A DNA stretch of 17,688 nucleotides from Anaerolineaceae bacterium (GTDB lineage: Bacteria > Chloroflexota > Anaerolineae > Anaerolineales > Anaerolineaceae): assembly GCA_028714615.1 (NCBI GenBank), contig JAQTMA010000018.1:1-17688 (forward strand), read 5' to 3'. The notes below the pieces were generated by a model. The model ran no database searches and was not told the origin of the DNA. It saw nothing but the letters and a program-made list of their open reading frames with translations. The translations under genes and the position numbers were made by a program. Shown here one piece after another: positions 1-15,626 of the stretch. The first letter of the stretch is position 1, and every line of letters begins with the position of its first letter.

Positions 1-1135
1 GGATACGCACGGTATACAAGATATCCCCGCCCTTGGGTGTAAAGCCATCCGAGATGCGGTCGATGCGTCCCTTGAGTTTCAGATCGGGCAGCGCGTCGGG
101 AACAACGCTGGCAGCCTGACCAACAGCCAGCTTGACCACGTCCATCTCGGTCAGGTCGCTGGTTTCCACGTACCATTCGGACAGATCGGCCAGGAGCAGC
201 ACCGGTTGGCCGGGAACAGCGTGCTCTTTGGCGGCAATATTCAGACTGACCACCGTGCCATCAAAAGGAGCCTTGAGCTCCAGGGCATCCAGGGAGGCTT
301 GGGCGGCAGTCCGCTGCGCGCGCGCATTATCGAGTTGGGCCTGGGCTAAGGCCAACTGGTCGGGATCTGGACCGTTCTTGAGCTGATCGAGTTCGCGCTG
401 CGCATCGTCCAGTTTGGCTTTGGCGACGGCCACTTGAGCATCGGCGGTGTTCAGGTCTTCTTCGGTAGGTTTGCCGGTGAGCCAATTGTAGTTAGCCAGG
501 GCCTGGTCGCGGGCTTTTTGAGCCAGGGTCAGGTCGCTGATAACTTTATTCTTGAGAATGCTGTCGTCAGGGAACACTTTGGCATGGTCGTATTGATCTT
601 GCATGCGGGCGACGTTAGAAAGCGCCAACTGGTAGGCTGACCAGGCATTGTCAATATCCACCTGGGTGCCGCGCGGATAGGCCATGCCGTCACGGTGATC
701 TTTGGCCTTGCGGTAGGCGGTTTGCGCCTGAGCGAGGGACAGCTCGGCGGCTGAAGTGGACAGGCCGGCTTTCTGGTTCAGCGTATTCAACGCCTGTTGG
801 GCGTTTAACACGGCCAGCTTCGCCGCCGTAACGGCGGCCTCCATCGGTTCGCGGTTGCCGAGCATCACCAATTCGGCGTCCTTGGTGACGTGATCGCCTT
901 CTTTCACCAGGACTTCGGAGACGTCTCCCGCGGTGAGAAAGGCTAACTGGGCCGAATCGCGGGGAACCACGTGCCCTTCCGCACTGACCCCCGCCGTCTG
1001 GCGGACGGTGGGGATGGATGGGGAACTGGTGGCCCCAGCCAGGGACGGCGTAGCGGCAGAGCAGCCAGCCAGCAGGCTGCCCGCTAGAGCCAGGACCAGG
1101 CAAAACAAGGATAAATTGCGTCGAGTACTATTCAT
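1..1135 (-). CDS. Periplasmic-adaptor-like (HlyD/MacA family) lipoprotein, C-terminus cut off by window edge
   Basis: I read this frame by hand: it is open from an ATG at 1135 to the left edge (378 codons, no stop). The N-terminus is a lipoprotein signal with lipobox LLAGC (Cys25) and a Ser/Thr/Pro linker. A barrel/lipoyl half-motif follows (GDVSEVLVKEGDHVTKD), then a long Ala/Gln/Leu-rich alpha-helical hairpin, then the returning half (LKAPFDGTVVSLNI) and the start of a beta-barrel domain. This is the usual order in membrane fusion proteins that work with MacB-type ABC transporters. GAGGAG lies 7 nt before the start. The gene follows the fused permease by 49 nt on the same strand, so it is probably the last visible gene of the exporter operon. 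In a bacterium lacking a classical outer membrane it would be an extracellular lipid-anchored partner rather than a link to TolC; that role is inferred. Confidence 0.88.
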   Translation of the reverse strand, partial: MNSTRRNLSLFCLVLALAGSLLAGCSAATPSLAGATSSPSIPTVRQTAGVSAEGHVVPRDSAQLAFLTAGDVSEVLVKEGDHVTKDAELVMLGNREPMEAAVTAAKLAVLNAQQALNTLNQKAGLSTSAAELSLAQAQTAYRKAKDHRDGMAYPRGTQVDIDNAWSAYQLALSNVARMQDQYDHAKVFPDDSILKNKVISDLTLAQKARDQALANYNWLTGKPTEEDLNTADAQVAVAKAKLDDAQRELDQLKNGPDPDQLALAQAQLDNARAQRTAAQASLDALELKAPFDGTVVSLNIAAKEHAVPGQPVLLLADLSEWYVETSDLTEMDVVKLAVGQAASVVPDALPDLKLKGRIDRISDGFTPKGGDILYTVRI

Positions 1136-1184
1136 GGTTATTCTCCTCTACCGGTGATATACCCCTCCGGTTTAATAGTCCCTG

Positions 1185-3596
1185 TTATTCATAAGAGAGC
1201 ACTTCGCGGATGGTCAGGCGGGCGGCGTTGCGGGCGGGAATGACGCTGGCCAGGATCGAGAGCACCAGAACCGCCCCGAACCAAATGACCACACCGGTGG
1301 GGGTAATGGTAAAACTGGCAGGCGCATCGAAGATAGCCTGGCTGACCTGGTCTGACATCAACTTCCCAAAAGGGATCGAGAGAACGCAACCCAAGGCCCA
1401 ACTGAGCGCACCGATCAACAATCCTTCCACAATCACCATGCTCATTAATATCCCGTCTGATGCGCCGATCGAGCGCATGATGCCGATCTCACGGGTGCGC
1501 TCCATGACGTTCAGGCTCATGGTGCCCATCAGCCCAATACTACCGACCAGCGCTGTCAAGCTGGCCATGATCAACAGGAAGATGGTGAGAATGTTGAGAC
1601 CGCGAGCAGCGGAGGCGCTGACATTCTGCCCGGCGTTCATATCGGCGATATGCAGACCCGCCCGGCGCAGATGCGTCTCGATCTCCAGCTCCAAAGCCTT
1701 CTGCTGATCCATGGTCAGTCCTTTGTGCGAAGCGACCACCTGGAAAGTGATGGCCTTGTTGGGAAGGTGAACCAGGGTGGAGAGATACTCGTAATTGGTA
1801 TAGGCCAGATAACCACCGCTCTTACCGGCCAACTGGAAGAAACCAACCACAGTAAAATTGGTCTCCTTACCGTTGACCAGCAGGCGCAGCGTGTCGCCCG
1901 GTTTGAGGTTTGGGAAGCCCGAAAGGAAACGCTCACTCAAGGCGATCGCGTTCTGGTCTTGCGGGAGAATCCAACGTCCGGAAAGTAACTTGGGCTCCAC
2001 CAGGTGGCTGTCGCTGGGAGGGCCGAATAATTGGATGCTGTCGCCGGGTTTGCCGTTATCCAGGATCAGCTCGCAGCGAGCCGCCGCCCAACCCTCCACG
2101 CTGGCCACCCCGGGCAGGTCGCTCAACTCCTGTTGGATGCGATCCACCCGGTAAGGGCGGTCCATCGTCAGAGTGACATCGGCGCGGAAATACTGGCTGA
2201 CCTGCACGATGTAATTATCGATAGAAGCACGGACGTTAAAGGTCGAGATGAAGATGGCGCCGCCCATGCCCAGGGTGATCAAGGTGAGGATCAGCCGCCC
2301 TTTGCGGCGGAACGTATTGCGCAGTGAAATCATCAATGGGCGCGGGATGCGGCGGATGCGCCCGACCAGGCGATCCAGGAGGCTTTTTTGCGGGCTGGCT
2401 TTCACCTGCCCGGCGCCGGAAAGCGCTTCCTGCACGCTAATCTGCGAACCATGCCAGATGGGGATGAATGCCGCCACCTGGGGAACCAGCAAGGCAATGA
2501 TGAGCTGCAGGATGACGGTACGCGGCACGATGCGGTACGGTTGGGCAGAGAAATTAATGCGCGCTGCCAGGAATTCGATCAGGCGGTTGGCAGCCTGGTC
2601 AGCCAGGGGCTGGGCGATGAGGAATGCCAGGACGCCGAACACGAAGATCAAAGCCATGTAGATCATCACGATCTGACTGCGCCGCGCGCCGATGGTCTTC
2701 ATGATCCCGATTTGGGCCATCTGCTGGTTGAGCAAGGCAAACAATGAATTGGTGATCAGGAAGCCGCTCAAGAAGACGACCAGTAAGCCGAGAAAGAGCA
2801 GTACTCCTGAGATCGCGTCGATGTAAGGTGTGAGCGGGTGGTCGGAGGAGCGGCGCATGATGGTGTTGACCACCAGTTGGTTACTATTCTCAACCTCGTG
2901 CCGCACCCGGTCGGCGACCTGTAAGATGTGGGCCAGGTCGTTGCCATCACCGGTAACAGTCACATAGACCTGGTTGAAGGTGGAAGGCAGCTCCAGCCAT
3001 TCGAGCGTGTCCTGGGTGATGTACCCCTGGACGGGGGCCAGGAAAAAACCCCCGCCAATCCCATTCGAGCCGATGGTTTGGTCGTGGACGATCCCCACCA
3101 CTTTGAGCTGGCGGGTTTTTCCGGAGGGCAGTTCGATCTCAATCGAATCACCCAGGCCAGCATGCGTATCACCGGCCTTGTTGTATTCGAGCACGACTTC
3201 CCGGTCAGACGGAGGCCAGGTTCCCTTGGCGAGCCTGACCTGGTCGATCTGCAGATTCTTGATATCGCCAAGTGCATTAATATTGATGGCAATCCATTGG
3301 CCAGCTCCGGTGTTCAGGCGCATGCCGGCCGTACGGGCGCCTTCCGCGTTTTGTACTCCTTCAAGGCGCCGGACGCGGTCGACCAGATCCTGGTCGATCG
3401 AGGCAGCCGCCATGCGGATGTTAGCGGGATGGATCGCGGCGTAGCCGACACTCATATCGCGACCCAGGACAGCATGCAGCGTAGAAATGATGCCGACGGC
3501 AAATAGCCCCACCGTGATGGAGGCGATGATCAACAAGGAACGGATTTTGTTCCCCCACAGATCGGAAAAGACTTTGCGCCAGCGCGGCCGGATCAT
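1185..3596 (-). CDS. ABC transporter permease with two FtsX/MacB-type halves (803 aa)
   Basis: This is a large membrane subunit of the FtsX/MacB (type VII) class. The first half has a transmembrane helix near residues 20-40, an extracellular MacB-core-like domain to about 255, then three helices around 260-375. The second half repeats the plan: one helix near 430, an outer domain, and three helices ending in IPARNAARLTIREVLSYE, the typical FtsX C-terminal motif. Both halves carry the coupling segment before the second helix (IGIMKTIGARRSQI and IGIMRSIGASDGI). I chose the ATG at 3596 because its first bases overlap the stop of the upstream ATPase (ATGA) and GGAGGAG lies 4 nt before it. An upstream in-frame TTG at 3611 would overlap that ribosome site. 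Such proteins usually move substrates from the outer leaflet or periplasm, or transmit force, rather than form a classic channel. The substrate is unknown. Confidence 0.93.
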   Translation of the reverse strand: MIRPRWRKVFSDLWGNKIRSLLIIASITVGLFAVGIISTLHAVLGRDMSVGYAAIHPANIRMAAASIDQDLVDRVRRLEGVQNAEGARTAGMRLNTGAGQWIAININALGDIKNLQIDQVRLAKGTWPPSDREVVLEYNKAGDTHAGLGDSIEIELPSGKTRQLKVVGIVHDQTIGSNGIGGGFFLAPVQGYITQDTLEWLELPSTFNQVYVTVTGDGNDLAHILQVADRVRHEVENSNQLVVNTIMRRSSDHPLTPYIDAISGVLLFLGLLVVFLSGFLITNSLFALLNQQMAQIGIMKTIGARRSQIVMIYMALIFVFGVLAFLIAQPLADQAANRLIEFLAARINFSAQPYRIVPRTVILQLIIALLVPQVAAFIPIWHGSQISVQEALSGAGQVKASPQKSLLDRLVGRIRRIPRPLMISLRNTFRRKGRLILTLITLGMGGAIFISTFNVRASIDNYIVQVSQYFRADVTLTMDRPYRVDRIQQELSDLPGVASVEGWAAARCELILDNGKPGDSIQLFGPPSDSHLVEPKLLSGRWILPQDQNAIALSERFLSGFPNLKPGDTLRLLVNGKETNFTVVGFFQLAGKSGGYLAYTNYEYLSTLVHLPNKAITFQVVASHKGLTMDQQKALELEIETHLRRAGLHIADMNAGQNVSASAARGLNILTIFLLIMASLTALVGSIGLMGTMSLNVMERTREIGIMRSIGASDGILMSMVIVEGLLIGALSWALGCVLSIPFGKLMSDQVSQAIFDAPASFTITPTGVVIWFGAVLVLSILASVIPARNAARLTIREVLSYE

Positions 3597-4369
3597 CGCG
3601 CTCCTCCGCAAGGTGCACCAGGCGCGATCAACTCGCCGTCCGAAAGCAAGAGCATGCGCGCTGTGCGCTGCGCCAGGCTTTGATCGTGGGTTACCATCAG
3701 GATGGTCTTCCTTTGTTGGATCAACTGGTCGAAAATGGCAAAAACTCCATCGGCCGTCTTCGAATCCAGGTTTCCGGTCGGTTCATCTGCGATCACGATG
3801 GGGGGATCATTGGCGAGCGCCCGGGCGATGGCCGCGCTTTGCTGCTGGCCACCGGCTACTTCGCCGGGCAGTTTCTGCGCCATTTTCTCGAGACCCACCA
3901 GCGCAAGCAAATCCATTGCCCGGCCTTCGCGCTCCCCCGTTGCGAACTTGTTGCAGAAATCCATGGGCAGGATGGTGTTTTCCAGAAGGGTAAGCATGGG
4001 CAATAACTGGAAGAATTGAAAGACGATCCCCAGGTTCAGCCCACGCCAGATAGCCATCTTGCTCTCGCGCATCTTATGAATGTACGTATCCCCAACTCGC
4101 ACCGTCCCCGAGGTGGGGTGATCGATGCCGGTGATCATGTTGACCAGGGTGGATTTTCCACTGCCCGAGCGTCCGACGACACTGACGAATTCTCCGGGGT
4201 AAAAACATGCATCGACACCCTTCAACGCCTGGAAATCCCCGGCAGGAGTCTTGAAGATCTTGACGATCTGGCGCATTTCGATCAGCGGTTGAGACGCCGG
4301 CGCTGCCGGGGATGAAGGAGAGCCGGCTGCGAAGGGGGAGGGTGGAAGACTGCCGGTCATGTCAGCCAT
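3593..4369 (-). CDS. ABC transporter ATP-binding protein, MacB/LolD-like, with a degenerate signature motif (258 aa)
   Basis: A Pro/Ser-rich N-terminal extension of about 28 residues precedes an ATPase domain. Walker A is GRSGSGKST (66-74), Walker B is IVIADEP with catalytic Glu196, the D-loop is NLD and the H-loop is His228 in VTHD. The ABC signature is unusual: VAGGQQQSAAIARAL replaces the family consensus [15 protein letters not shown], so both the signature Ser and the conserved Arg are changed. The start codon lies 8 nt inside the preceding ATPase gene; an ATG three codons later (4360) is an equally plausible start. The stop overlaps the permease start (ATGA), implying translational coupling. 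Together with the neighbouring ATPase it probably forms a heterodimer under the single fused permease. The degenerate signature suggests one ATP site hydrolyses poorly; that is inference from the motif only. Confidence 0.93.
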   Translation of the reverse strand: MADMTGSLPPSPFAAGSPSSPAAPASQPLIEMRQIVKIFKTPAGDFQALKGVDACFYPGEFVSVVGRSGSGKSTLVNMITGIDHPTSGTVRVGDTYIHKMRESKMAIWRGLNLGIVFQFFQLLPMLTLLENTILPMDFCNKFATGEREGRAMDLLALVGLEKMAQKLPGEVAGGQQQSAAIARALANDPPIVIADEPTGNLDSKTADGVFAIFDQLIQQRKTILMVTHDQSLAQRTARMLLLSDGELIAPGAPCGGAR

Positions 4370-5102
4370 TTACAATCTCGCCATCCACAAGATGGACTAC
4401 ACGCGAGACACGCTGCGCCAGGGATTGGTCATGGGTGACCATCAGGATGGTTTTACCCTGGTCGACCAGCTTGAGGAATATCTGAAAAATGGTCTCGGCA
4501 GTGGTGGAGTCGAGACGTCCGGTGGGTTCATCAGCCACCAGGATAGGTGGGTCGTTCGCCAGGGCGCGGGCAATCGCCACGCGTTGCTGCTGTCCGCCGG
4601 AAATGGCAGCGGGAGGCTTGTTAGCGTGAGCTTCCAGCTCGACCTCGCGCAGCAACTGCATGGCTCGTTCGGCACTCTTGCGTGGGCGATACCGGCCGCA
4701 CAGGTCCATCGGGAACATGATGTTATCCAAAAGAGAGAGGGAGGGGAGCAAATGAAACGACTGGTAGATGACGCCCAGATTTAGCCCGCGCCACTGGGCC
4801 AAAGCATCCTCATCCATCTGGTGTACGGAAACGCCCTGCACCCTAACCTCCCCTGAGGTCAGGTGGTCAACCCCGGTCACCATGTTGGCCAGGGTGGTTT
4901 TCCCGGCGCCCGACTTACCGATGATGCCGACGAACTCACCCGGATACACGTCCAGGTCAATGCCTTTCAGCGCCGCGGATTCCCCCGCTGCAGTACGGTA
5001 GATCTTGGTGACCCCTCGCATTTGGATGAGCGGCTGCGCGGTTCCCGGGCTGGGTGGGAATGCCCCACTGCCTTCTTGACTGGACGATTGGATATTTTCC
5101 AT
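4362..5102 (-). CDS. ABC transporter ATP-binding protein, MacB/LolD-like, canonical motifs (246 aa)
   Basis: First gene of the exporter operon. After a short Ser/Pro-rich N-terminus the domain shows Walker [10 protein letters not shown] (62-70), signature [15 protein letters not shown] (from 167), Walker B ILVADEP with Glu192, and the H-loop His224 in VTHD. All catalytic motifs look intact, unlike those of the downstream paralogue, with which it shares much of its sequence ([28 protein letters not shown]). The ATG at 5102 is preferred because AGGA lies 5 nt upstream. The longer frame back to 5183 begins with TTG, has a Cys/Arg/Lys-rich stretch unlike the family, and falls in the predicted 5' leader. 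The two ATPase genes probably arose by duplication and now energise one double permease. Confidence 0.93.
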
Positions 5103-5185
5103 TACGATCCTACCAAAGCCACCTGCCTTGCACCGACATGGTTTCCGATTGCACGGAATAGTGATGCGCGGTAAAATGAACAATG

Positions 5186-5201
5186 TGTTTATTTATAAAC
5201 A
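5186..5201. promoter_or_regulatory. 16-bp palindrome, candidate TetR operator
   Basis: Seen directly: TGTTTA-TTTA-TAAACA, two perfect 6-bp arms around a 4-bp AT-rich centre. It lies in the 244-bp gap between the divergent tetR and exporter genes, 4-20 nt downstream of the predicted start point of the exporter transcript. A repressor bound there would block promoter clearance. This is the usual geometry for local TetR control, but binding is inferred. A weaker 16-bp inverted repeat (TTCCG, 6-nt gap, CGGAA) lies at 5143-5158 in the leader. Confidence 0.5.
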
Positions 5202-5211
5202 ATACGTTCAT

Positions 5212-5240
5212 ATTATAATCGGGATCAATGAGCTTTGCCA
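5212..5240 (-). promoter_or_regulatory. Predicted promoter of the exporter operon
   Basis: On the minus strand a perfect TATAAT (5217-5212) has TGGCAA, a weak -35 matching 3 of 6, at 5240-5235 with a 17-nt spacer. The start point would fall near 5205, giving a leader of about 100 nt before the first ATPase. The same ATTATAAT core also reads TATAAT on the plus strand (5214-5219), so it could serve the divergent tetR gene too, although no good -35 box is visible for that direction. Confidence 0.45.
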
Positions 5241-5346
5241 TGGAAGATCCCCGGATTTTTGATGTTTCTGCGAGCTCAGTACGCACAAACAGCATAATTC
5301 CGGTTAATCCCACGACTGTAATGAGCCAGGTGACGGGCGGTGGATC

Positions 5347-5976
5347 ATGATGGACAAAAAGCAGGATCGAAGAACCAGCCGGACGCGCCGCTTATTGAGA
5401 GACGCGCTCCTGGCGCTCGTGCTTGAAAAGGGCTACGATACGGTGACCGTTGAAGAGATCACGGCACGGGCTGACCTGGGGCGAACCACTTTCTATTTGC
5501 ATTACCGGGACAAAGAGGAGTTATTGCTGGAGAGCATCGACAGTATGGTCAACGACGTGGTCGAGATGGTCTCCCAGATCCCCCTTTCCGCCTGGAAACC
5601 CGGGCCCTACCCAGAACAAGCGCTGCACACCCCCATCCAGTTCATTTTCGAACACGCCGCCAGCCATGCGGACCTGTACCGCATTATCCTCCGCGGGGAA
5701 GGCCGTTCCCAGGCAACCGAGCGTCTGCGCGAGATCATCGTTCGGGCAGCCAATCGTTTTCTCGAAGTGCGACTGGCGCGCGAACGGCCAGCCATTCACC
5801 CGCACATTCCTCTGGACGTATTTTCGAATTATTTCGCCGGATCGCTGCTGGGCAGCCTGACGTGGTGGCTGGAAAACAGGTTGCCCTATCCACCCGAGCA
5901 AATGGCCGAGATGTTCGAGATGATGTTTTTCCAGGGCTCCGGGCAAGCGCTGGGCTTGCCGCGGCAAACCGAGTAG
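5347..5976 (+). CDS. TetR/AcrR family transcriptional regulator (209 aa)
   Basis: The N-terminal TetR DNA-binding domain covers about residues 12-60, with the recognition helix in ITARADLGRTTFYLHYRDKEEL, a close match to the family consensus. The C-terminal ligand domain (about 75-205) contains a Leu/Trp-rich helix, YFAGSLLGSLTWWLENRLPYPPE, abridged here as GSLTWWLE near residue 175, resembling the TetR_C_7-type regulatory region; that subfamily call is tentative. Two adjacent ATGs (5347, 5350) are possible starts, and GGTGG lies just upstream. It is the only confident plus-strand gene and is divergent from the two-ATPase exporter operon, with a 16-bp palindrome between them. Most likely it represses the exporter and perhaps itself, and is released by a compound the exporter handles. 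The ligand cannot be told from sequence. Confidence 0.93.
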   Translation: MMDKKQDRRTSRTRRLLRDALLALVLEKGYDTVTVEEITARADLGRTTFYLHYRDKEELLLESIDSMVNDVVEMVSQIPLSAWKPGPYPEQALHTPIQFIFEHAASHADLYRIILRGEGRSQATERLREIIVRAANRFLEVRLARERPAIHPHIPLDVFSNYFAGSLLGSLTWWLENRLPYPPEQMAEMFEMMFFQGSGQALGLPRQTE

Positions 5977-5992: not shown

Positions 5993-6409
5993 TCAACCTT
6001 CGCTTTTTCCCCCGATCATGCGGATCGAGACACTTGGCGCGCCTTCTTTACGGAAACGCAGGATCTCCGGATGGGAGGTGGAGAAGCTATCCAAAGATTT
6101 CGTGTCCCAGGTGACGCGCGGTTTACTCCACACAGCCTGCAGGTATTGGCCTTTGAAGCTGGCGCCAGATACTTTAACGGCATTCTTAATGGCTTCCTCT
6201 AGTTCAGTGATGTTGGTATTGACCGCTTCCGCTTTTTCAGAAAATTCGTCTTCGATTTCCTGGAGTTTGGCGCGGATTTCGGGGGTCAGGATAGAGTCGA
6301 TGAGCTGCTTCTTCTCCAATTGCAAGGCATCCCGTTGCGCCTGATACTGAGCAAGCTGATCGAGCATCTTGGGGATAACGGACTCAAGAGTTGGGGGAGG
6401 AGGGCTCAT
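5993..6409 (-). CDS. Small coiled-coil protein of unknown function (138 aa)
   Basis: I do not recognise a named function. Residues 12-80 are charged and heptad-like (Gln/Leu/Lys/Glu rich), predicting a coiled coil. The C-terminal 50 residues form a compact segment with aromatic and conserved-looking motifs: GASFKGQYLQAVWSKPRVTW, then DTKSLD, HPEILRFRKEG and PSVSIR. This resembles short proteins I recall from Chloroflexota and phage-like contexts in which KG..L.AV...RV.WDT and HPEI..FRK.G.PS..IR recur; that is memory, not a search result. No Shine-Dalgarno precedes the start, because the upstream codons encode a Thr/Pro tail. The ATGA overlap with the protease-LysM gene stop implies translation by re-initiation and a functional link. 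The 3' end lies 16 nt from the convergent tetR stop. Confidence 0.8.
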   Translation of the reverse strand: MSPPPPTLESVIPKMLDQLAQYQAQRDALQLEKKQLIDSILTPEIRAKLQEIEDEFSEKAEAVNTNITELEEAIKNAVKVSGASFKGQYLQAVWSKPRVTWDTKSLDSFSTSHPEILRFRKEGAPSVSIRMIGGKSEG

Positions 6410-8055
6410 GCGGGTGTAGGGGTATCGGCCGGTGTGGGGGTATCCGTGGGCGGCAGAGGGGTTTCAGTCGGCGTGGGAGTATCCGTGGGCGGGAGCGGGG
6501 TTTCGGTGGGGGTGGGTGTATCGGTGGGCAAGTCTGTAGCCGTCGGGGTGTGTGTGGGCGGTAGCGAGGTGGCTGTAGGCGTAGGCGTCCGGGTTGGGGT
6601 GTTGGTCGGCGTGTGAGTAGGCGTGCGAGTAGGGGTATCGGAGGGAGTGGCGGTAAGGCTTGGAGTGCGGGTGGGCGCCAGGGTGAAGGAAGGGGTCGGA
6701 GAGGGGCCAGCCGTTGGAGTGCGGCTCGGTGGAGGAGTCGCGGTAACGGTTGGGAAAGGCGTGTCGGTGCGTGCGGTCTGATCGGTGGGAGTTTCGGTGT
6801 TGGGGGGAAGATAAGGCAAGTAAAGCAGTTGGCCCGTCTTAAGAATGTCGCTGGTCATGCAATTGGCCTGGCGAATCTGGGCTACACTCATATTGAGTCG
6901 TTGGCCCAACCCCGACAGAGTGTCGTTGACCCGAATGATATATGCAACCCACCTCGGGGGGCGCCCGCAGGGTGTGGCAGTCGCTGTGGAGAGTGGAGCA
7001 AGCGTCGATTGAATACCTTCTGGCGTCAGGCTGGCTGCTTTTGGGGTTGCGGAGTTTGCCACCAGGGTGGACGGAGAGGAGGGTGTGACAGTGGGCAGCA
7101 ACCAGGGTCGCGTTGCCTGTCCGGTTGCCATGGGGGCAAGCACGTCCGCCCCGGTGACCGGGAAAAGCGGAGCGACCGGCGGGGTAGCGGCGGGTACAGC
7201 CAACAAGAGCGGGAACACCAAGAATAACCCGATATTGATGAGTCCATGCGAGAGCGCCACTCCGAGGATCGAGCCGGTGAGCAGGGTGATACACCCAAAG
7301 ATCAGCGCAACCGCCAGCACAAAAACGACGTCCAGGGGAGAGCGGTACCCCAGGTGCAGAACCGCAAATACAAGGGCTACGTAAAACAAGCCGAACAAGC
7401 CGTAATTGCGCGTGGCGGTGTATTGCATGAAACCACGGAAAATAAATTCCTCTAGAAAGCCGGTAAATACCAACAGAATGATGGCCGGCAGGATGATTTG
7501 CTGCAAGTTCAGTTGAGAAATCAAAGGCGCGGGCTTTAAAATCTGATATTCAACGTAACCCAGAACCAGGCCGCTGGCGCCGATGAGGAGCTGGATGGGC
7601 AGCTTCCGGGGAGAGATGGTTAAGCCCAGCATACTGCTGCTCAGGTTGCCGGCGCGCACCAGAAAAAAGGCGGCAACGCACAGGGGAACTCCCACCACCA
7701 GGTACCAGTAGACATAGGGGATATCGGGCATCGGGAAAGCCAGGCTCAGAACCCGCAACAGGGAAGCCAATGCCAGGCTAAGGTAAAAGCGCTGGCGCAC
7801 TTCCCCGGGTCGAGCCAGAACGTTCAGCAGGAGAGTTACCAGCACGGCCGCATGCAAGATAAGGCCAAGCCGGGCGCCGATCCAGTGGGTGAGGATTTCC
7901 GCAACCGCCAAGGCGATCAAATACGCCAGTGCGGTGACCGGAGTGGATCGAAGGAAAGGAACTTCCTGAATGGATTCACCGGCGCCATCCTGCGGATTTG
8001 ATTCAACGGGGAGGTTGGGTGTGCCAGGAGTAAGAGAAGGGGTACGTTCAGCCAT
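6406..8055 (-). CDS. CPBP-family intramembrane protease fused to LysM and a Thr/Pro repeat tail (549 aa)
   Basis: After a 36-residue Pro/Ser-rich head, residues 37-290 form about eight membrane helices. The CPBP (CAAX/Abi) protease motifs are visible: EEFIFRG with Glu202, Glu203 and Arg207, FAVLHLG with His234, and SHGLIN with His270 and Asn274. A linker of about 80 residues leads to a LysM domain (about 371-414, IIRVNDTLSGLGQRLNMSVA ... ILKTGQLLYLP), expected to bind glycan chains such as peptidoglycan. From about 420 to the end the protein is a low-complexity TPT/TETPLPPTD tail that includes a 13-residue tandem repeat. Family members usually consist only of the protease domain, so the fusion is unusual. 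Topology suggests that LysM and tail lie outside the membrane and tether the protease to the cell wall (inference). The start ATG has no strong ribosome site. A good promoter lies 100 bp upstream. Confidence 0.9.
   Translation of the reverse strand: MAERTPSLTPGTPNLPVESNPQDGAGESIQEVPFLRSTPVTALAYLIALAVAEILTHWIGARLGLILHAAVLVTLLLNVLARPGEVRQRFYLSLALASLLRVLSLAFPMPDIPYVYWYLVVGVPLCVAAFFLVRAGNLSSSMLGLTISPRKLPIQLLIGASGLVLGYVEYQILKPAPLISQLNLQQIILPAIILLVFTGFLEEFIFRGFMQYTATRNYGLFGLFYVALVFAVLHLGYRSPLDVVFVLAVALIFGCITLLTGSILGVALSHGLINIGLFLVFPLLLAVPAATPPVAPLFPVTGADVLAPMATGQATRPWLLPTVTPSSPSTLVANSATPKAASLTPEGIQSTLAPLSTATATPCGRPPRWVAYIIRVNDTLSGLGQRLNMSVAQIRQANCMTSDILKTGQLLYLPYLPPNTETPTDQTARTDTPFPTVTATPPPSRTPTAGPSPTPSFTLAPTRTPSLTATPSDTPTRTPTHTPTNTPTRTPTPTATSLPPTHTPTATDLPTDTPTPTETPLPPTDTPTPTETPLPPTDTPTPADTPTPA
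6440..6517 (-). repeat. 39-bp tandem repeat encoding a 13-residue Thr/Pro unit
   Basis: Two near-identical 39-bp copies (6440-6478 and 6479-6517) with degenerate partial copies on either side encode TPTPTETPLPPTD units in the C-terminal tail of the protease-LysM protein. The plus strand here is rich in G runs (GGGG, GGGGG) every 5-15 nt. Copy number probably varies between strains. Confidence 0.8.
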
Positions 8056-8153: not shown

Positions 8154-8182
8154 ATTCTAATTAGCATCTTGCCTGGCGTCAA
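8154..8182 (-). promoter_or_regulatory. Sigma-70-like promoter for the protease-LysM gene
   Basis: On the minus strand TTGACG (8182-8177) and TAGAAT (8159-8154) are separated by exactly 17 nt. The start point is expected near 8147, giving a leader of about 90 nt. This is the best -35/-10 pair in the window and marks a new transcription unit after recO. Confidence 0.65.
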
Positions 8183-8281: not shown

Positions 8282-9061
8282 TTATGCGTCGGGGGAGGAG
8301 GTGCGACTCTGCCGGACCTGACGCATGAACGCAGGCGTGTTGAGGCTGCGCTCGAGGAAGTAAGTCATATAGCGCTGCAGAATGGCTTCCATTTCAGCCC
8401 GTACGACGGGGGTGAGCTGCGCGCGGGCCGCCTCTGGATAGCTACTGCGCTGCAGGTGACGCAGGTACTTCAATGCTTCGACGGAAACCGGAACCACATC
8501 TGGGCGACCCGGGCCGCACTTTGGGCAAAAGATTCCGCCCTGCTCGAAGGAGAAGAACTGGTCTTGCGGCTGAACCAGCTCGCCGCAGCCCAGGCAGTTG
8601 GTCAGCTCCGGGCGGTAGCCGAGCAGATCGAGCAGGTGGATCTCGAAGTAACGGATGGCCAGCACCGCATCCGGCTGAGTGGAGATGCGCTCGAGGGTCT
8701 CGGTCAGCAGGCGGTAGACAGCCCGATTTTCCCCCTCTTCATAGAAAAAGCGGTCGATGATCTCCACCAGGTAAGCCGCGTAACTGGTCTTGACCAGGTC
8801 TTCGCGCAACGGCAGGTAGGCATCCACGGTTTCGGCCTGGGTAACAATAGGCATATCGCGTCCCTGGGCGAGTTGCAAGCTGACGCGGGTGAAGGGCTCG
8901 AGGTGCCCGGCCTTGCGCGAGCGGATCTTGCGGGCGCCTTTAGCGATCGCGCGGACTTTGCCCGACTCGCGCGTATAGAGCACGAGTAAGCGGTCAGCTT
9001 CGCCGTAATTGGAATGCCGTAGGACAACGGCTTCAACCCGGAAAGAACGTTCGCGAGACAA
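8282..9061 (-). CDS. recO: DNA repair protein RecO (259 aa)
   Basis: RecO acts in the RecFOR pathway, helping load RecA onto SSB-coated single-stranded DNA and annealing strands. The N-terminal OB-fold shows the family pattern FRVEAVVLRHSNYGEADRLL and LYTRESGKVRAIAKGARK. The helical C-terminal part carries a zinc-binding set, CLGCG (Cys156, Cys159) and CPKCG (Cys179, Cys182), as in many RecO proteins. Length is normal. The start is TTG at 9061: the frame has a stop 7 codons upstream, no ATG or GTG falls before the conserved FRVEAVV, and no Shine-Dalgarno is visible. It lies 78 nt after the CBS membrane-protein gene, with no evident promoter or terminator between, so it is probably the last gene of the glmU run. 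Confidence 0.93.
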   Translation of the reverse strand: MSRERSFRVEAVVLRHSNYGEADRLLVLYTRESGKVRAIAKGARKIRSRKAGHLEPFTRVSLQLAQGRDMPIVTQAETVDAYLPLREDLVKTSYAAYLVEIIDRFFYEEGENRAVYRLLTETLERISTQPDAVLAIRYFEIHLLDLLGYRPELTNCLGCGELVQPQDQFFSFEQGGIFCPKCGPGRPDVVPVSVEALKYLRHLQRSSYPEAARAQLTPVVRAEMEAILQRYMTYFLERSLNTPAFMRQVRQSRTSSPDA

Positions 9062-9139
9062 AAGGTTAGTGGTTAGTCAAGAAGGAGGTAGGAATGTGAC
9101 GACGCGGCTCTGTGACCATCAGACAACGTGACTATTTGG

Positions 9140-10417
9140 CTACTCGACATTGACCTCTTTGACCTCCGTCTCAGGTTTTGGCTGGATGCGCCGGGCGCGC
9201 ACCTTACGGATGCGGCGCCCGCTGACCTGTTCGACGGTCAGCACCAGGCCGTCGGTCTCGACCGATTCGCCGCCGGCCGGGATACGCCCGATCTCCGCGT
9301 AAATAAAGCCGCCCAGGGTATCGGCATCCTCCTTGGCCAGGTGGCTGCCCATGACTTCATTGAAATCGTCCAGGTTGATGCGTCCTTGAAAGATGTATTC
9401 ATCCGGACCCACGGGCTGGAAAAGCATCTCTTCGGCCTGATCGTATTCGTCCTGGATCTCGCCGACAATCTCTTCGACGATGTCCTCGAGCGTTACTAGG
9501 CCGGAGACTCCGCCATACTCGTCCACCACGATGGCCACGTGGACGCGGCGCAGTTGCATTTCGGTGAGGAGCTCGTCTGCTTTCTTGGCCTCCGGGACAA
9601 AATACGCCGGGCGCAGCAGCTCGCGCCGCTCGCTGAGGGGCTGGTTGGAAGGCTTGGCGCGCAGCAGGTCCTTGGCGTAGAGCAGGCCGACAATGTTGTC
9701 GATGCTCTCTTCGTAGACCGGGACGCGCGAGTGACCCGTCTGGCTCATCGCTTCGATGGCCTCAGCCAGGGGGGTGCTGATTTCAAGCACTTGAACGTCC
9801 ATGCGGGGGACCATCACCTCCCGGGCGAGGGTATTGCGGAAATGAAAGATGGAATAGATCATCTCGCGCTCGCCCTTTTCCAGGCTGCCTTCCGGCTGGC
9901 CGGCTTCGACCCAGTTCTTGAGCTCATCTTCGGTCATCTGGGTCATAGATGGCTGCGATGGGGTGGAGTAACCCATAACTGCCATCATTAGCGCTGAAAA
10001 TGGAGAAAGCAGCAAGTCGATCGCCTGTCCAACCGGGGAGAGGTGGATCAGCCACTCCTCGGCGTGGGGTAGAGCGCGGCCTTCAAGTCCGTTTTCCAGC
10101 AGAAAAACCACCAGGCCCGTCATAGCAAGCACGCCGAGCAACTGGCCCACGCCCAGCGGCGTCGATACGTAGCGCTGCAGCAGTAACCAGGAGATGCCCG
10201 CGAAGCAAAAATGTCCCAGGACGGTTGCCAGGCGCAGGCTCACCCGGCTGCGCGGTTTTTCAGAAAAAGTCACCGCCCGATCCACCGGCCCGGGGCGCTG
10301 CTCGCGTAAATTCAGCAGGAGCGGCAGGCGCGCGTTCACCAGGCTGGCTCGCACCGCCGTGAACAGCAGATCCAGGGCTAACAGAAGGAACCAGATAATC
10401 CACGCAGCGTCAATCAC
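9140..10417 (-). CDS. CNNM/CorC (HlyC) family membrane protein with CBS pair (425 aa)
   Basis: This family is linked to magnesium and cobalt efflux or resistance; older annotations call it hemolysin-like. Residues 1-150 form a membrane domain of about four helices (DUF21 type, rather divergent). A linker with [20 protein letters not shown] leads to a CBS domain pair, about 198-325 ([51 protein letters not shown]). The C-terminal CorC/HlyC-associated domain runs from about 340 to 410 ([30 protein letters not shown]). I chose GTG at 10417, which overlaps the glmU stop by 8 nt, with GGAT 5 nt upstream. The longer frame to 10483 would run deep into glmU and adds a sequence that does not look like a membrane protein start. 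It is probably co-transcribed and translationally coupled with glmU. Confidence 0.9.
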
Positions 10418-11765
10418 GATGATCCAACTTGCGTAACGGGCGGGCGGGCACGCCGACCACGACCGTATTCGGGGGGACGTCATGGGTTACGACCGCGCCC
10501 GAACCGGTGATCGCGCCTTCCCCCACCTTGATCGGGGCAACCAGCAAGGTATCGCTGCCGATAAATGCCCCCGCTCCAATTTCCGTGGGGTTCTTCTTGC
10601 CGTCCGGCGAGAAATTACAGGTGATGGTACCGCAGCCAATATTCACATCTTCCCCGATGTGTGCATCGCCAATATAGGAGAAGTGGCCCATCTTGACCCC
10701 GGGAGCCAGGTAAGAATTCTTCACCTCGCCAAAGTTGCCCATGTGAACACCTTTCCCCAGGTGAGCGCCCTTGCGCAAATGTGCGAACGGCCCCATGTCG
10801 ACATCGTCCTCAAGGCGAGCGCTCTCCAATACGGAGGCCAGGACGGTACACCGGCTGCCGACCTGGGTATCACGGATGATGGTGTTCGGACCAATCTGAC
10901 AACCCTCGCCGATGGTGGTCTGCCCCTGCAGGTACGTATCCGGCCAGACGACAGTGTCACGCCCCAGGGTGACCTCCGCTTCGATGTAGGTCGAGTCTGG
11001 GTCGATCAGAGTGACGCCTTGCAGCATCCACCGCTCGTTAATGCGCTGGCGCATGGCCCGCTCGGCCTCGGCCAGATGGACGCGAGTATTGATCCCAAGA
11101 AGTTCCTGAGGGTCTTCGATGATCAACGCCTGCACGGAGCGGCCTTCGCGAACCGCCAGGGCGACGGTATCGGTGAGGTAGTATTCGCCTTTGGGAGAAA
11201 GCGGCACGCGCTGAAGCGCATCCCACAACCAGGCGGCCGAAAAGCAGTAAACACCCGCGTTGAGCTCGTGGATGGCCAATTGTTCGGGGGTGGCTTGCGC
11301 CTCTTCCACGATCGCCTGGACGCTGCCATCCCCTGCGCGCAGGATGCGGCCAAAGCCGCGCGGGCTATCCGCGACGACGGTCAGGAGGGTGAGCACACCC
11401 GAAGAATGGCGTTGGGTCTCGACCAGGCGAGAAAGGGTCTCGGCGCGCAGCAGAGGCATGTCTGCGTATGTAACCAGAATCAGGTCGGATTGTCCGCGCA
11501 GGAGAGGCTCGGCGGCCTGCACGGCGTGAGCCGTCCCCAGTTGCTGTTCCTGGATCGCAAAACGGGCAGAATCGCCGGCAGCCAGGCGGACGGCATCCGC
11601 CCCGGACCCCACGACCACCACCGGGAGGGTATCGCTGGCGGACTGAGCGGCGCCCAGGGCATGCAAGATCATCGGCCGCCCCGCAACCGGGTGCATGACC
11701 TTCGGAAGTGTAGAGCGCATGCGGGTTCCCTGGCCGGCGGCCAGGATGACTGCAGTAGTGGTCAT
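10410..11765 (-). CDS. glmU: Bifunctional UDP-GlcNAc pyrophosphorylase / GlcN-1-phosphate acetyltransferase GlmU (451 aa)
   Basis: GlmU makes UDP-N-acetylglucosamine from glucosamine-1-phosphate, acetyl-CoA and UTP in the cytoplasm, the entry to cell-wall precursors. The N-terminal uridyltransferase half has the nucleotide-binding motif LAAGQGTRMRSTLPKVMHPV, then the Asp of TYADMPLL and later NAGVYCF. From about residue 245 a left-handed beta-helix of hexapeptide repeats follows (GRDTVVWPD, GEGCQIGPNTIIRD, YIGDAHIGEDVNIGCGTI), ending in a typical TGSGAVVTHDVPPNTVVVGV. Length matches the family. The ATG at 11765 is chosen because GGGAG lies 8 nt upstream and the protein then starts right before the catalytic motif; the frame further upstream (to 11831) crosses a terminator-like hairpin. 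The gene overlaps the following CBS protein gene by 8 nt. Confidence 0.97.
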   Translation of the reverse strand: MTTTAVILAAGQGTRMRSTLPKVMHPVAGRPMILHALGAAQSASDTLPVVVVGSGADAVRLAAGDSARFAIQEQQLGTAHAVQAAEPLLRGQSDLILVTYADMPLLRAETLSRLVETQRHSSGVLTLLTVVADSPRGFGRILRAGDGSVQAIVEEAQATPEQLAIHELNAGVYCFSAAWLWDALQRVPLSPKGEYYLTDTVALAVREGRSVQALIIEDPQELLGINTRVHLAEAERAMRQRINERWMLQGVTLIDPDSTYIEAEVTLGRDTVVWPDTYLQGQTTIGEGCQIGPNTIIRDTQVGSRCTVLASVLESARLEDDVDMGPFAHLRKGAHLGKGVHMGNFGEVKNSYLAPGVKMGHFSYIGDAHIGEDVNIGCGTITCNFSPDGKKNPTEIGAGAFIGSDTLLVAPIKVGEGAITGSGAVVTHDVPPNTVVVGVPARPLRKLDHRD

Positions 11766-11785
11766 CAATTTACTCCCATTAATAC

Positions 11786-11822
11786 AAAAAGGCTGTGCGC
11801 TCGTGGTTGTTGGCGCAAAGCC
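11786..11822 (-). terminator. Intrinsic terminator-like hairpin between tRNA-Gln and glmU
   Basis: On the minus strand GGCTTTGCGC and GCGCACAGCC pair at 9 of 10 positions around a 12-nt loop and are followed by TTTTTG. The tRNA lies 56 bp upstream and the glmU ATG about 20 bp downstream. It should end the tRNA transcript. Because so little room remains for a separate promoter, it may also act as an attenuator for glmU read-through. Confidence 0.65.
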
Positions 11823-11877
11823 CATTTGCATCTAAATTCCAGCTTATTGTCTTCCCATCCGTATGAAACTCACGAGG

Positions 11878-11948
11878 CTGGGGCACCTGGACTCGAACCA
11901 AGATCCACAGATCCAAAGTCTGGTGTGCTGCCATTGCACCATGCCCCA
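11878..11948 (-). tRNA. tRNA-Gln (anticodon UUG)
   Basis: Folded by hand. The acceptor stem TGGGGCA pairs with TGCCCCA in all 7 pairs and the discriminator is G. The D arm GTGC/GCAC is complete, the anticodon loop is CTTTGGA with TTG at 34-36, the variable loop is 4 nt, and the T arm CTTGG/CCAGG encloses TTCGAGT. Four of five anticodon-stem pairs form; the outermost is C-T. CCA is not encoded (CCT follows the discriminator). Identity follows from the anticodon and from the U1-A72 acceptor pair usual in tRNA-Gln. Confidence 0.95.
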
Positions 11949-11980
11949 ACATTGCAACCCCACCGGGCCGCGTGGTTGTG

Positions 11981-12008
11981 ATTCTAACACAAAAAAGGGA
12001 GTTCGCAA
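11981..12008 (-). promoter_or_regulatory. Predicted promoter of tRNA-Gln
   Basis: On the minus strand TTGCGA (12008-12003) lies 16 nt before TGTTAGAAT, an extended -10 with TG one base ahead of TAGAAT (11986-11981). The start point would fall near 11974, about 26 nt before the mature tRNA. The preceding response-regulator gene ends at 12012, so its 3' end and this promoter nearly touch. Confidence 0.55.
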
Positions 12009-12011
12009 TCG

Positions 12012-13187
12012 TTAACGTTCAGAATCCTTGGGCGCCAGACCCATACGGGTTGCTTGTTGGTACGAAAGCACGTCCACGCTGGTGGGATCATCGAGCGCAG
12101 CCGGGCCGGTTGCGCCATCCCAGAATGCGTCGACGTCGGCCGGTTTCATTCGCTTCGCGTTGGTTTGATCGAACAATGCAGCCAATTGCTCCATTGGGAG
12201 TGGATCATCAGCTAGCTCTTGGGGGGGAAGGACAGCGGGAGCGAGAGCCATCGCTGTGTTTACCCCGGCTGTGGAAAATCCCTCCGCGCCAGAGTAGGTT
12301 TCTGGGGTGACAGGCAATCCGGTAGACATGGGTGGAGCCAGCGGGACAGGGGTTTCTACGCGCGGGGCGGGGGCGTTCAACTCAGCCGTCTTGACCGCCT
12401 GGGCTTTTTCGAGATCTTTCTGTACGGCCAGCAACTCTTCCAGGGCGATCGCCATGCGCAAGTTGCTGCGTTCTTTTCGAATCACCACCAACACAGCCAG
12501 GGCGCCGCCTGCCGGGGCGACCAGCAAATGGCAGGTTGATCCGCGATAGGCCAGCACACTTTCCGGCGCAGGCGTCCCCAATTGTTGGCTGACCTTCAAG
12601 CCGGCGCTCAATGCCGGCAGCAAGGTGGGAAGGATGGCAGCCTCTATCGAAGGTTCTGGCCAGGCCCCGGTTTGCATCACGACGCGACCTTGCTCGTTGA
12701 TCAGGGCAACCAAAGCCGCGCCGAGGGACTTGCGCAAGCCAGAAAGCAGATCCCCCATGCGGATTGACTTTGCGTCTTTGGGACGCGGCGAAATCCCTTC
12801 CGGGCGAACAGGGGGCTTTACCCCAAGCATCTGCGCGACTGTATGAAGAAAATCACCGGTGGAGATGGGCTTAGGGAAAAATGCGTTGGCGCCGGCAGCC
12901 AGAGCTTGCTGCCTGACCTGCGGGTCGGTGATGCCGGAGATCTCGATGATCTGGACGGCCTGATCTCGGGCGCGCACACGGCGGGTCAACTCCAGGCCAG
13001 AAAGCCCCGGCAGGCGGACGTCGATCACCAAAAGATCAGCGCCTTCCGAAAACAACTCGACCAGCACTTCTTCGGCGGTTGCGAAGGTTTTGATCTGCAA
13101 GCCTGAATCCAGGGTTGAGATGGCCGTAGCAATCAGCCGGCCAGTCTCGCGCGCATCGTCAACTATGAGAACCTTTTTCCCGCTCAT
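12012..13187 (-). CDS. Response regulator with C-terminal Roadblock/LC7-like domain (391 aa)
   Basis: Residues 4-122 are a CheY-like receiver: acidic pair Asp10-Asp11, phospho-acceptor Asp56 in LLVIDVRLPGLSG, Ser84, and Lys106 in FFPKPI. All key residues are present. No DNA-binding or enzymatic output follows. Instead residues about 145-240 (LGAALVALINEQGRVVMQTG, then GSTCHLLVAPAGGALAVLVV) look like a Roadblock/LC7 (MglB-type) fold, usually a partner of small Ras-like GTPases. A short coiled stretch (250-270) and a disordered Pro/Ala-rich region lead to a C-terminal block with VDVLSYQQATRMGL. No histidine kinase or GTPase lies in the window, so the partner is unknown. The gene stands alone between the peptide-transport operon and tRNA-Gln. 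The Roadblock call rests on pattern only; a GAF-like fold is the alternative. Confidence 0.85.
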   Translation of the reverse strand: MSGKKVLIVDDARETGRLIATAISTLDSGLQIKTFATAEEVLVELFSEGADLLVIDVRLPGLSGLELTRRVRARDQAVQIIEISGITDPQVRQQALAAGANAFFPKPISTGDFLHTVAQMLGVKPPVRPEGISPRPKDAKSIRMGDLLSGLRKSLGAALVALINEQGRVVMQTGAWPEPSIEAAILPTLLPALSAGLKVSQQLGTPAPESVLAYRGSTCHLLVAPAGGALAVLVVIRKERSNLRMAIALEELLAVQKDLEKAQAVKTAELNAPAPRVETPVPLAPPMSTGLPVTPETYSGAEGFSTAGVNTAMALAPAVLPPQELADDPLPMEQLAALFDQTNAKRMKPADVDAFWDGATGPAALDDPTSVDVLSYQQATRMGLAPKDSER

Positions 13188-13196
13188 GGTGTACTC

Positions 13197-13205
13197 ATTA
13201 TATCA
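13197..13205 (-). promoter_or_regulatory. Extended -10 promoter element just before the response-regulator start
   Basis: The minus strand reads TGATATAAT, with a perfect TATAAT at 13202-13197 and TG one base upstream. Only 9 nt separate it from the ATG at 13187, so the transcript should start at or within about 3 nt of the start codon. No ribosome site is seen, which agrees with a leaderless mRNA. Confidence 0.5.
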
Positions 13206-13220
13206 TCAAGGGATTTTTGG

Positions 13221-13394
13221 ATGAGTTGCTTCTCATGCGATGCAATTACCAGGCCAAGAATACTGTTTGCTAACCCTGGCGCCGCCCTCCACAACGCGCT
13301 TCCCGTGGCGGACTGCACCGTGTTGACGCACGGCGTCACGCTACACGTGCCGGTGGGGCAGAAGTTTCTCGAAGAGCTTGTTATACGCCCATAA
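13221..13394 (+). CDS. Possible small ORF or gene remnant, 57 codons, unknown
   Basis: An ATG at 13221 preceded by AAGGG at 8 nt opens a 57-codon frame ending in TAA at 13394. From about codon 18 the third positions are strongly G/C and the sequence looks protein-like (ALHNALPVADCTVLTHGVTL, then HVPVGQKFLEELVIRP). The first 15 codons are less coding-like, so this may be the tail of a lost gene rather than an intact small protein. I recognise no family. The stop lies inside the left arm of the large hairpin at 13384-13433. It is divergent from the response-regulator gene and no clear promoter is visible. Confidence 0.3.
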   Translation: MSCFSCDAITRPRILFANPGAALHNALPVADCTVLTHGVTLHVPVGQKFLEELVIRP

Positions 13395-13433
13395 CGCGAA
13401 TTGTGCTCAAAGCAATTCGCCTAATGGGTGTAC
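13384..13433. repeat. Large imperfect hairpin downstream of the dppF-like gene
   Basis: The inner arms GCGAATTG (13396-13403) and CAATTCGC (13413-13420) pair perfectly around a 9-nt loop. The outer arms TACGCCCAT and ATGGGTGTA pair with one G-T wobble, separated by a small internal loop. On the minus strand it begins 18 nt after the stop of the peptide-transport operon, so it may be a 3' end stabiliser or terminator, but no T run follows on either strand. It could also be a dispersed palindromic repeat. Confidence 0.6.
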
Positions 13434-13451
13434 TTCGCGGTTTGTATGTCT

Positions 13452-14432
13452 TTACGCGATGCGCCAGCAGGCGGCCCAGTGATCTTTGGAGACCTCCTGG
13501 AAGACGGGTTCTTTTTGGGCGCACACATCCATGGCTACAGGGCAGCGCGGATGAAAGCGGCAACCCGGCGGCGGGTTAACCGGAGAGGGTACGTCGCCAC
13601 GCAGGATGATACGGTCACGCTTCACCTTGGGGTCCGCAACGGGGATGGCGCTCATCAATGCCTGAGTATAGGGATGCAAGGGGTTGCGGAAGAGCTCATC
13701 CCGCGAGGCCAGTTCGACCATTTTGCCCAGGTACATGACTGCTACCCGGTCGGAGATGTGCTCCACGACAGACAGGTTGTGGGCGATGAACAGATAGGTC
13801 AGGCCGAATTCTTTCTGCAGATCCTTGAGGATATTCAAGACCTGGCTTTGGATGGAAACATCCAGGGCAGAGACCGGCTCATCGCACACGATGAACTTGG
13901 GACGCAGGGCCAGCGCGCGGGCGATGCCGATGCGTTGGCGCTGCCCGCCGCTGAACTCGTGCGGATAGCGGCGGGCGTGATAGTCCTCCAGGCCCACCTT
14001 GCGCAAGGTTTCGATCATCAGATCGTAGCGTTCCTTGGAATTCCCCACGTTGTGAATCTTGAGCCCTTCCATGACGCTTTCACCAATGGGCATGCGCGGA
14101 TCGAGCGAGGCGTACGGGTCCTGGAAGATGATTTGCATATTGCGGCGCATTTCTTTCAGGCTGCGGCCCTTGAGCGCAAACACGTCCGTCCCTTCGAAGC
14201 TGACCTGGCCCCCGGATGGTTCGGTCAAGCGCAACATGGTGCGCCCCACGGTGGTCTTCCCGCAGCCGGATTCTCCCACCATGCCGAGGGTTTCACCGGC
14301 GCGGATGTTGAAGCTGACGTCATCGACCGCCTGGACCCAGGCTACAACACGTTGCAGCAACCCGCCGCGGACGGGGAAGTATTTCTTGAGGTTTTTGACT
14401 TCGATCAAATTACTGGAATTCATTGATTCCAT
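13452..14432 (-). CDS. Oligopeptide/dipeptide ABC transporter ATP-binding protein, DppF/OppF type (326 aa)
   Basis: Second ATPase of the peptide-import operon. Walker A is GESGCGKTT (53-61), the Q-loop is [10 protein letters not shown], the signature is [15 protein letters not shown] (from 160), Walker B is FIVCDEP and the H-loop is His218 in FIAHNL. The family-specific C-terminal oligopeptide domain follows: [15 protein letters not shown] with Cys291, Cys297, Cys304 and a late Cys322, the four-cysteine set typical of OppD/DppD/OppF proteins. The ATG at 14432 has AAGGA 6 nt upstream; a second ATG at 14423 is possible. A 103-bp inverted repeat occupies the spacer between this gene and the DppD-type gene upstream. 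Confidence 0.93.
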
Positions 14433-14452
14433 GTTTCATCCTTCAAGGGCTT

Positions 14453-14555
14453 TTAACGCAGAGGACACAGAGCAGTACCAGAGCACGCAGAGGAAACCAG
14501 AGAAAAAATTATATCTCTGTGTACTTTGGTTCTTTCTCTGCGAACTCCGTGTTAA
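14453..14555. repeat. 103-bp intercistronic imperfect inverted repeat rich in CGCAGAG/CACAGAG units
   Basis: It begins TTAACGCAGAG and ends CTCTGCGAACTCCGTGTTAA, whose complement matches the opposite arm. The arms, about 45 nt each, match at most positions, and many mismatches are purine changes that leave G-U pairs in RNA. Inside are CACAGAG, CCAGAG, CGCAGAG and CTCTGTG. It fills nearly the whole 128-bp gap between the two peptide-transport ATPase genes, ending 6 nt beyond the dppD-type stop. I recall similar ACGCAGAG elements scattered in many environmental genomes including Chloroflexota; copy number here cannot be judged. Confidence 0.75.
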
Positions 14556-14560
14556 GGTTC

Positions 14561-15595: not shown

Positions 15596-15626
15596 CAAAT
15601 TCTTTCCTCCACTCCTCTCGCTCCTG

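Follow-up and report, generated by a model that had tools for sequence, protein, structure and literature searches.

In the 17,688-nucleotide stretch analysed here (positions 1 to 17,688 of contig JAQTMA010000018.1 of an Anaerolineaceae bacterium, called the window below), one gene encodes a protein in which a CPBP (Rce1-like) membrane domain is followed by a LysM domain and a Thr/Pro-rich tail. Its relatives form a Chloroflexota family that is tied to surface-glycan loci and to DUF1616, a point absent from the first-pass annotation of this DNA. As judged from sequence and gene order, we favour, with modest confidence, the reading that the protein is an intramembrane CPBP protease associated with glycan assembly and tethered to the cell wall, its activity being predicted. 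It would be a glutamic-type enzyme of nine helices with its N-terminus inside and its C-terminus outside the cytoplasm. After helix 9, a Pro/Thr-rich stalk and a single cysteine-paired LysM would bind glycans containing N-acetylglucosamine and pin the enzyme to the wall, while the active site stays in the membrane. Since the genes of the family mostly sit in surface-polysaccharide loci (with DUF1616, Wzy_C ligase/polymerase, GT4 and GT2, Wzx-like and LCP genes), its job most likely lies in surface glycan. Its members would most likely cleave a protein involved in exporting, polymerising or attaching surface glycan, or control such a protein via the membrane core, and the tail would keep the enzyme where new glycan meets the wall.

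The gene is an uninterrupted frame of 549 codons plus a stop, with an ATG start. Membership of its product in both families is clear from the curated Pfam cut-offs, the PF02517 match reaching 53.8 bits (cut-off 22.4) and the PF01476 match 27 bits (cut-off 20.9). Alignments and averaged hydropathy place the EExxxR, His and HxxxN motifs of the CPBP family in predicted membrane helices. The catalytic residues named in the first-pass annotation (Glu202, Glu203, Arg207, His234, His270 and Asn274) are all found in the alignments at these positions; in 20 aligned rows of relatives the first five are invariant and Asn274 is conserved in at least 90%. Pfam matches and composition also bear out the LysM domain and the Thr/Pro tail described beyond the membrane part. 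The tail comprises 135 residues, 65% of them Thr or Pro, and a 39-base tandem repeat (positions 6418-6529) lies near the end of its coding DNA.

The same architecture is found elsewhere. The database search that the first-pass annotation had proposed, in a space of about 5.8 billion proteins, gave 83 matches, of which 19 carry a CPBP domain; eight protein clusters (P0001-P0007, P0009) have CPBP and then LysM in one frame. Two further LysM-tailed members, L063 and L064, came from whole-genome loci. In the aligned region, the eight clusters share 40-58% identity with the window protein, and two of them, P0005 and P0007, are nearly identical. With a profile at E 1e-20 there were 59 matches, among them no CPBP protein that the first search had missed. 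In both searches, scoring was confined to the 7997 candidates sharing most words, so that the number of CPBP-LysM proteins is a lower bound; the architecture seems rare. Because CPBP precedes LysM in one frame in the eight clusters and in L063 and L064, a sequencing frameshift in the window gene is very unlikely, and the split after residue 290 that had been considered for this gene is not indicated. In the literature searched on CPBP proteins with LysM, Rce1 topology, domain architecture, glycan loci and sorting, a body of work that left out most subscription papers, neither the fusion nor the gene association is described in a title or the opening of an abstract.

The hydropathy profile averaged over 45 aligned members of the family has nine peaks, of which the last runs to about residue 287. 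Helix bounds set by hand from this profile were used to count lysine plus arginine in the loops of 78 members (80 rows less L069 and L074, which were dropped beforehand). Loops 2-3, 4-5, 6-7 and 8-9 hold 8.7 such residues on average, against 2.2 in the alternate loops. The excess is seen in all 78 members, and in 77 of them when the catalytic Arg207 is left out; in the window protein, the inner loops hold 8 and the outer loops 3. This excess suggests that the N-terminus is inside and the C-terminus outside. Natural fusions offer a second, built-in hint of membrane topology. Domains of the LysM, SH3 and golvesin types are usually found outside the cell, and HTH and TPR domains usually in the cytoplasm. 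In 18/18 members carrying LysM (11), SH3_3 (4) or Golvesin_C (3), the domain comes after helix 9 with no adjacent helix 10, whereas in 5/5 members an HTH (P0017, L119, L120, L121) or TPR (L117) domain follows a tenth helix (Fisher p 3e-5, or 7.5e-4 with the near-identical L119-L121 counted as one). P0013, SH3-like by eye only, was excluded from the 18 and labelled SH3 in the tree described below; a hydrophobic stretch of L064, about 290 residues past helix 9 and beyond its LysM, reads by eye as a shifted frame and was not counted as a helix 10. A single-sequence topology predictor was set aside as over-strict where helices contain polar catalytic residues, and the averaged profile was used instead. 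On this averaged and indirect evidence, the LysM and the C-terminus probably lie outside the cytoplasm and the N-terminus inside, against the cytoplasmic LysM and tail that the first-pass annotation had raised as the opposing outcome.

The LysM module itself is consistent with this placement. Both Cys363 and Cys399 are kept in all nine rows of the LysM-type alignment, and 33 of the 64 other proteins found by the search (P0020-P0083) show this cysteine pattern as well. The N-termini of P0020, P0021, P0022 and P0029, the four that were printed, read by eye as signal anchors; thus, two cysteines common to secreted-looking LysM proteins support an outside tail. LysM proteins of this kind (P0020-P0022), several of them named Anaerolineae, share with the window protein the cysteine-paired LysM, at up to 57% identity (the figure for the LysM of P0020), and the Thr/Pro tail; unlike it, they have two LysM copies and no CPBP domain. 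That the protease is tied to the wall, as the first-pass annotation proposed, stands as regards the order of the parts, and the tether would be its natural reading, because all CPBP active-site residues precede a LysM predicted outside.

The distribution of the family is patchy. A match to the CPBP membrane part was found in 29 of 396 genomes of a class sample (E 1e-10 or better) and in 31 of 400 genomes of a phylum sample (1e-15). A contig scan (13 loci), which matched mostly Thr/Pro tails, was used only to enter the class genomes. In a quick tree of 74 membrane domains, with some long branches (L069, L074, L096, L124, L127 and L133 were dropped from the 80 rows), the window protein falls within a set of 23 rows (SH-aLRT 97) in which 20 of the 25 tailed rows are found, and thereby belongs to the family, although the clustering of tailed rows may partly reflect their gathering with the window protein as query. 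The tails are of several kinds, namely LysM, SH3, golvesin-type and a bare Thr/Pro stalk, and they have been swapped repeatedly: the tail label changes 15 times on the tree, and the starred branches force at least two changes for LysM and at least three for SH3. LysM is thus one of several interchangeable tails. The survey of CPBP proteins ending after the membrane domain covered this family, in which 40 of the 74 tree proteins bear no tail module label; one of them, L093, has a 237-residue tail lacking a Pfam match. The six motif residues are complete in 57 of the 80 members tabulated, including all 11 of LysM type, all three of golvesin type and three of the four of SH3_3 type. Losses are found for example in L119-L121 (EERQHS) and L123 (EERPHA). 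In the first three of these (L119:1399-3003, L120:1918-3132, L121:1656-2954), the second-motif His and the active-site Asn are replaced, and an extra helix and a C-terminal HTH are present; these may be membrane-bound regulators after loss of protease activity. Receiver-like and TPR-like modules are found at the N-terminus of some members, most TPR scores being below their cut-offs. A receiver domain begins the CPBP proteins at L061:9209-10504 and L123:1368-3296; the latter, whose receiver score is below cut-off, also has an SH3 domain at the opposite end.

The gene context of the family was studied in 31 CPBP loci of the class sample (L044-L074), in which L063 and L064 are the only LysM-type contexts apart from the window. 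Glycosyltransferases, DUF1616, Wzy_C, Wzx-like and similar genes recur as neighbours. In BLAST probing, in which matches of a probe to the locus it came from were disregarded, at least one of seven glycan-assembly families was found within 6 kb in 26/31 loci, against 1/20 first-contig loci (from 20 of the 29 protease genomes) and 0/20 loci around recO in other members of the class; the p value versus the first-contig set is 2.6e-8. The probes matched DUF1616 in 16 of the 31 loci, GT4 in 13, Wzy_C in 9, GT2 in 9 (and in one of the 20 first-contig loci), "PMT" in 5, Wzx-like in 5 and NTP_transf_5 in 2; GT2, "PMT", Wzx-like and NTP_transf_5 are each not significant alone. Across genomes, the DUF1616 profile at E 1e-10 matches 35 of the 396 class genomes, 23 of the 29 with the protease as compared with 12 of the 367 others (odds ratio 113, Fisher p 2.9e-23). 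At E 1e-22 or better, a cut chosen after seeing the data, all 22 genomes with DUF1616 carry the protease. In 9/31 loci, the DUF1616 gene ends at most 40 bp upstream of the CPBP gene on the same strand, with an overlap in seven (longest-frame gene calls). Elsewhere, the gene directly upstream encodes Wzy_C (L048, L060), an LCP glycopolymer transferase (L065) or, next to a polysaccharide deacetylase gene, a GNAT protein (L044). The two other LysM-type loci are glycan loci as well: in L064 the order is GT4, DUF1616, CPBP-LysM and a Wzy-cluster gene (cut by the contig end, itself lacking a Pfam match), and in L063 CPBP-LysM is followed by Wzy_C. In one paper, DUF1616 appears in a glycosylated archaeal membrane protein for which no function is given. 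An FAD enzyme gene overlaps the CPBP start at L053:9434-10792 and L057:7352-8590, with a weak geranylgeranyl reductase match in L053 and an assignment by clustering in L057; genes resembling it by eye follow recO in several relatives.

Several points weigh against a wall-tethered protease of glycan assembly. No substrate candidate was found in the loci examined. The glycan probes were drawn from the CPBP loci themselves, the "PMT" probes lack a Pfam name, and the one for Wzx, taken from L065, scores below its cut-off. As for the controls, the first-contig loci are drawn from the starts of contigs and include several short ones (218 kb against 323 kb in total), and the recO loci are one recurrent block; moreover, related genomes share loci, so that the p values overstate independence. 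Five of the 31 loci (L044, L066, L067, L069, L074) gave no probe match, L066 having DUF1616 by profile and L044 its deacetylase and GNAT genes, and at E 1e-10 no DUF1616 match is found in six of the 29 genomes with the protease. At least one of the six motif residues is absent in 23/80 family members. The crude single-sequence predictor gave mixed results, often with fewer helices, and ranked the C-terminus inside first in many members. In the PDB, sequence searches returned LysM proteins together with low-complexity and unrelated weak matches, none of them of CPBP fold, and the CPBP part has no match at E up to 10. Finally, the window copy departs from the rule of its relatives, in that no glycan probe matches near its CPBP gene. 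The gene follows recO, and no CPBP match was found in the stretches around recO of 20/20 relatives, where the genes after recO vary; the idea that it is part of a recO operon was rejected on these grounds. For the same reasons, the window gene looks like a displaced copy, linked to glycan assembly by its family only; we infer that it keeps the family role.

How the family compares with known systems bears on what else it might be. With other Rce1-like CPBP proteins such as MmRce1 and DidK, the window protein shares the three motifs. Its spacing (E202-H234-H270-N274) is close to that of DidK (D203-H237-H274-N278), and the spacing of its first pair to that of MmRce1 (E140-H173; PMC10811503). It differs from Rce1-like proteins in its predicted outside C-terminus after helix 9, with stalk and LysM, and lacks the extra helix of some relatives. 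Myxosortases (MrtX, MrtJ, MrtS) are CPBP enzymes that process surface proteins (PMC11980579). A sorting role of this kind, in which an exosortase or myxosortase analogue coupled to the glycan locus would trim a C-terminal signal of exported surface proteins, appears unlikely, despite a surface-related context shared by the relatives of the window protein. Among NCBIfam models, the window protein is matched best by MrtJ (5.3e-8) and then by MrtS (1.8e-6); MrtJ also ranks first for L063 and P0001 and, behind an ABC-permease/CPBP fusion model, second for L051. However, the scores of the window protein are far below every cut-off (33.5 bits of 75 for MrtJ, 28.3 of 130 for MrtS, 14.9 of 100 for Mrt_core), and no convincing CTERM substrate was found near the genes. 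No plausible protein with a tripartite C-terminal signal was found in the fetched loci: the 32 CPBP sources, the window among them, gave three loose candidates, and the 40 control loci gave 11. Exosortase loci contain polysaccharide deacetylase and GNAT genes, as does L044 upstream of its CPBP gene. MrtX has 239 residues (PMC11980579). Exosortase is, like the CPBP family, a membrane enzyme tied to glycan loci, being known from exopolysaccharide loci (PMC1569441), but it belongs to a different family, and a Pfam search with the window protein, up to E 0.1, gave no PF09721 match. PF09721 occurs in 3/29 protease genomes versus 9/29 others, which is only a trend towards mutual exclusion of the two enzymes; they coexist in three genomes.

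It is somewhat less probable again that the CPBP fold serves as a non-proteolytic scaffold, binding or tuning kinases, hydrolases or glycan polymerases, with catalysis incidental. The model would be SpdC (LyrA) of Staphylococcus aureus. The C-terminal part of SpdC is cytoplasmic. For that of the window protein, charge and fusion evidence predict an outside position, and the single-sequence predictor gave mixed results. SpdC is, like the window protein, a membrane protein of CPBP/Abi type, tied to cell-wall regulation; it has eight predicted helices and then a C-terminal part, for which the portion of the article available mentions no LysM (PMC5854430). It binds histidine kinases via its membrane helices (PMC5854430) and forms complexes with SagB (PMC10811503). 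Motif losses in the family, as in L119-L121 and L123, would suit such a role, and the N-terminal receiver and TPR modules suggest protein-protein contacts. Nevertheless, the complete motifs in every LysM-type and golvesin-type member would be unexpected if catalysis were dispensable in tailed members. It is rather improbable that the tail is a passive anchor or spacer of no functional role, picked up when the gene happened to fuse with a common secreted module of LysM and Thr/Pro, the window copy being a displaced accessory gene. The close match of the module to other LysM proteins, the many tree rows with no tail label and the position of the window copy outside a glycan locus fit this explanation. 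Against it, wall- or carbohydrate-binding tails arose repeatedly on the quick tree, and chance fusion would not favour one domain kind.

A protease working at the surface, as favoured here, has parallels that are analogies: the myxosortases, SpdC and the CPBP protein M949_RS01035 of Riemerella anatipestifer. The latter species belongs to a phylum other than that of the host of the window. Transposon inactivation of its gene leads to a deficient O-antigen ladder; the protein has 225 residues and is likened here by description (PMC6142336). Prokaryotic CPBP proteins are largely unexplored (PMC11980579). Here, gene order and co-occurrence link a whole CPBP family to surface-glycan assembly and to a domain of no known function. 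The surprising part is this family, in which a predicted membrane protease with swappable outer wall-binding tails is coupled to DUF1616 in the glycan loci of Chloroflexota. If the proposed reading is true, it names concrete knock-outs and gives a first handle on DUF1616 and on envelope building in the little-studied Chloroflexota. More speculatively, the CPBP protease, the DUF1616 membrane protein and the Wzy_C-type ligase/polymerase might form one undescribed Chloroflexota surface-glycan machine, in which a protein that bears or exports glycan would be matured or released by the protease, and the exchangeable tails on the outside (LysM, SH3, golvesin-type, bare stalk) would fix the machine to the wall of each lineage. 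If so, it would add a further kind of surface-linked protein processing beside exosortase and myxosortase.

Features of the CPBP-LysM gene and its immediate neighbours (positions in the window)
Feature	Position	Strand	Basis
CPBP-LysM gene	6406..8055	-	open frame, Pfam, relatives
N-terminal segment, residues 1-40, predicted cytoplasmic	7936..8055	-	averaged hydropathy and charge
Nine predicted membrane helices, residues 41-287	7195..7935	-	averaged hydropathy, loop lysine plus arginine
Rce1-like (CPBP) domain, residues 186-275	7231..7500	-	PF02517, E 2.5e-14
EExxxR motif, residues 202-207	7435..7452	-	alignments
His234, second catalytic motif	7354..7356	-	alignments
HxxxN motif, residues 270-274	7234..7248	-	alignments
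Pro/Ala/Thr-rich linker, residues 288-371	6943..7194	-	composition of residues 288-357
Cys363, directly preceding LysM	6967..6969	-	invariant in 9/9 rows of LysM-type alignment
Cys399 within LysM, possible disulfide partner of Cys363	6859..6861	-	invariant in 9/9 rows
LysM domain, residues 372-414	6814..6942	-	PF01476, E 4.4e-6
Thr/Pro tail, residues 415-549	6409..6813	-	36% T, 29% P
recO, upstream neighbour	8282..9061	-	TIGR00613
Promoter-like site between recO and CPBP gene	8154..8182	-	weak: 2 sites in scanned stretch against 0.9 expected
orf138, overlaps CPBP stop (ATGA), widespread small protein	5993..6409	-	open frame

The genes preceding the CPBP gene in the window (8282-17621) are, in order, SBP, OppD, OppF, a response regulator, GlmU, CorC and RecO, the last being up to 65% identical to RecO of class-sample genomes. 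Among the 20 relatives, GlmU and the response regulator are near recO in 19 and CorC in one. Just upstream of glmU, the minus strand carries a tRNA-Gln (TTG) (11876-11948). On the other side, orf138 has 257 homologues at E 0.001, whose names disagree (PDCD5-like, Gam-like); it reaches no curated Pfam cut-off, has no match at E 0.01 in the loci examined and is probably only a neighbour of the CPBP gene. Further on, positions 2-5976 hold an HlyD-like gene (by eye), an FtsX/MacB-like permease, two ABC ATPase genes and a divergent TetR regulator, a set that looks like one for efflux or lipoprotein export.

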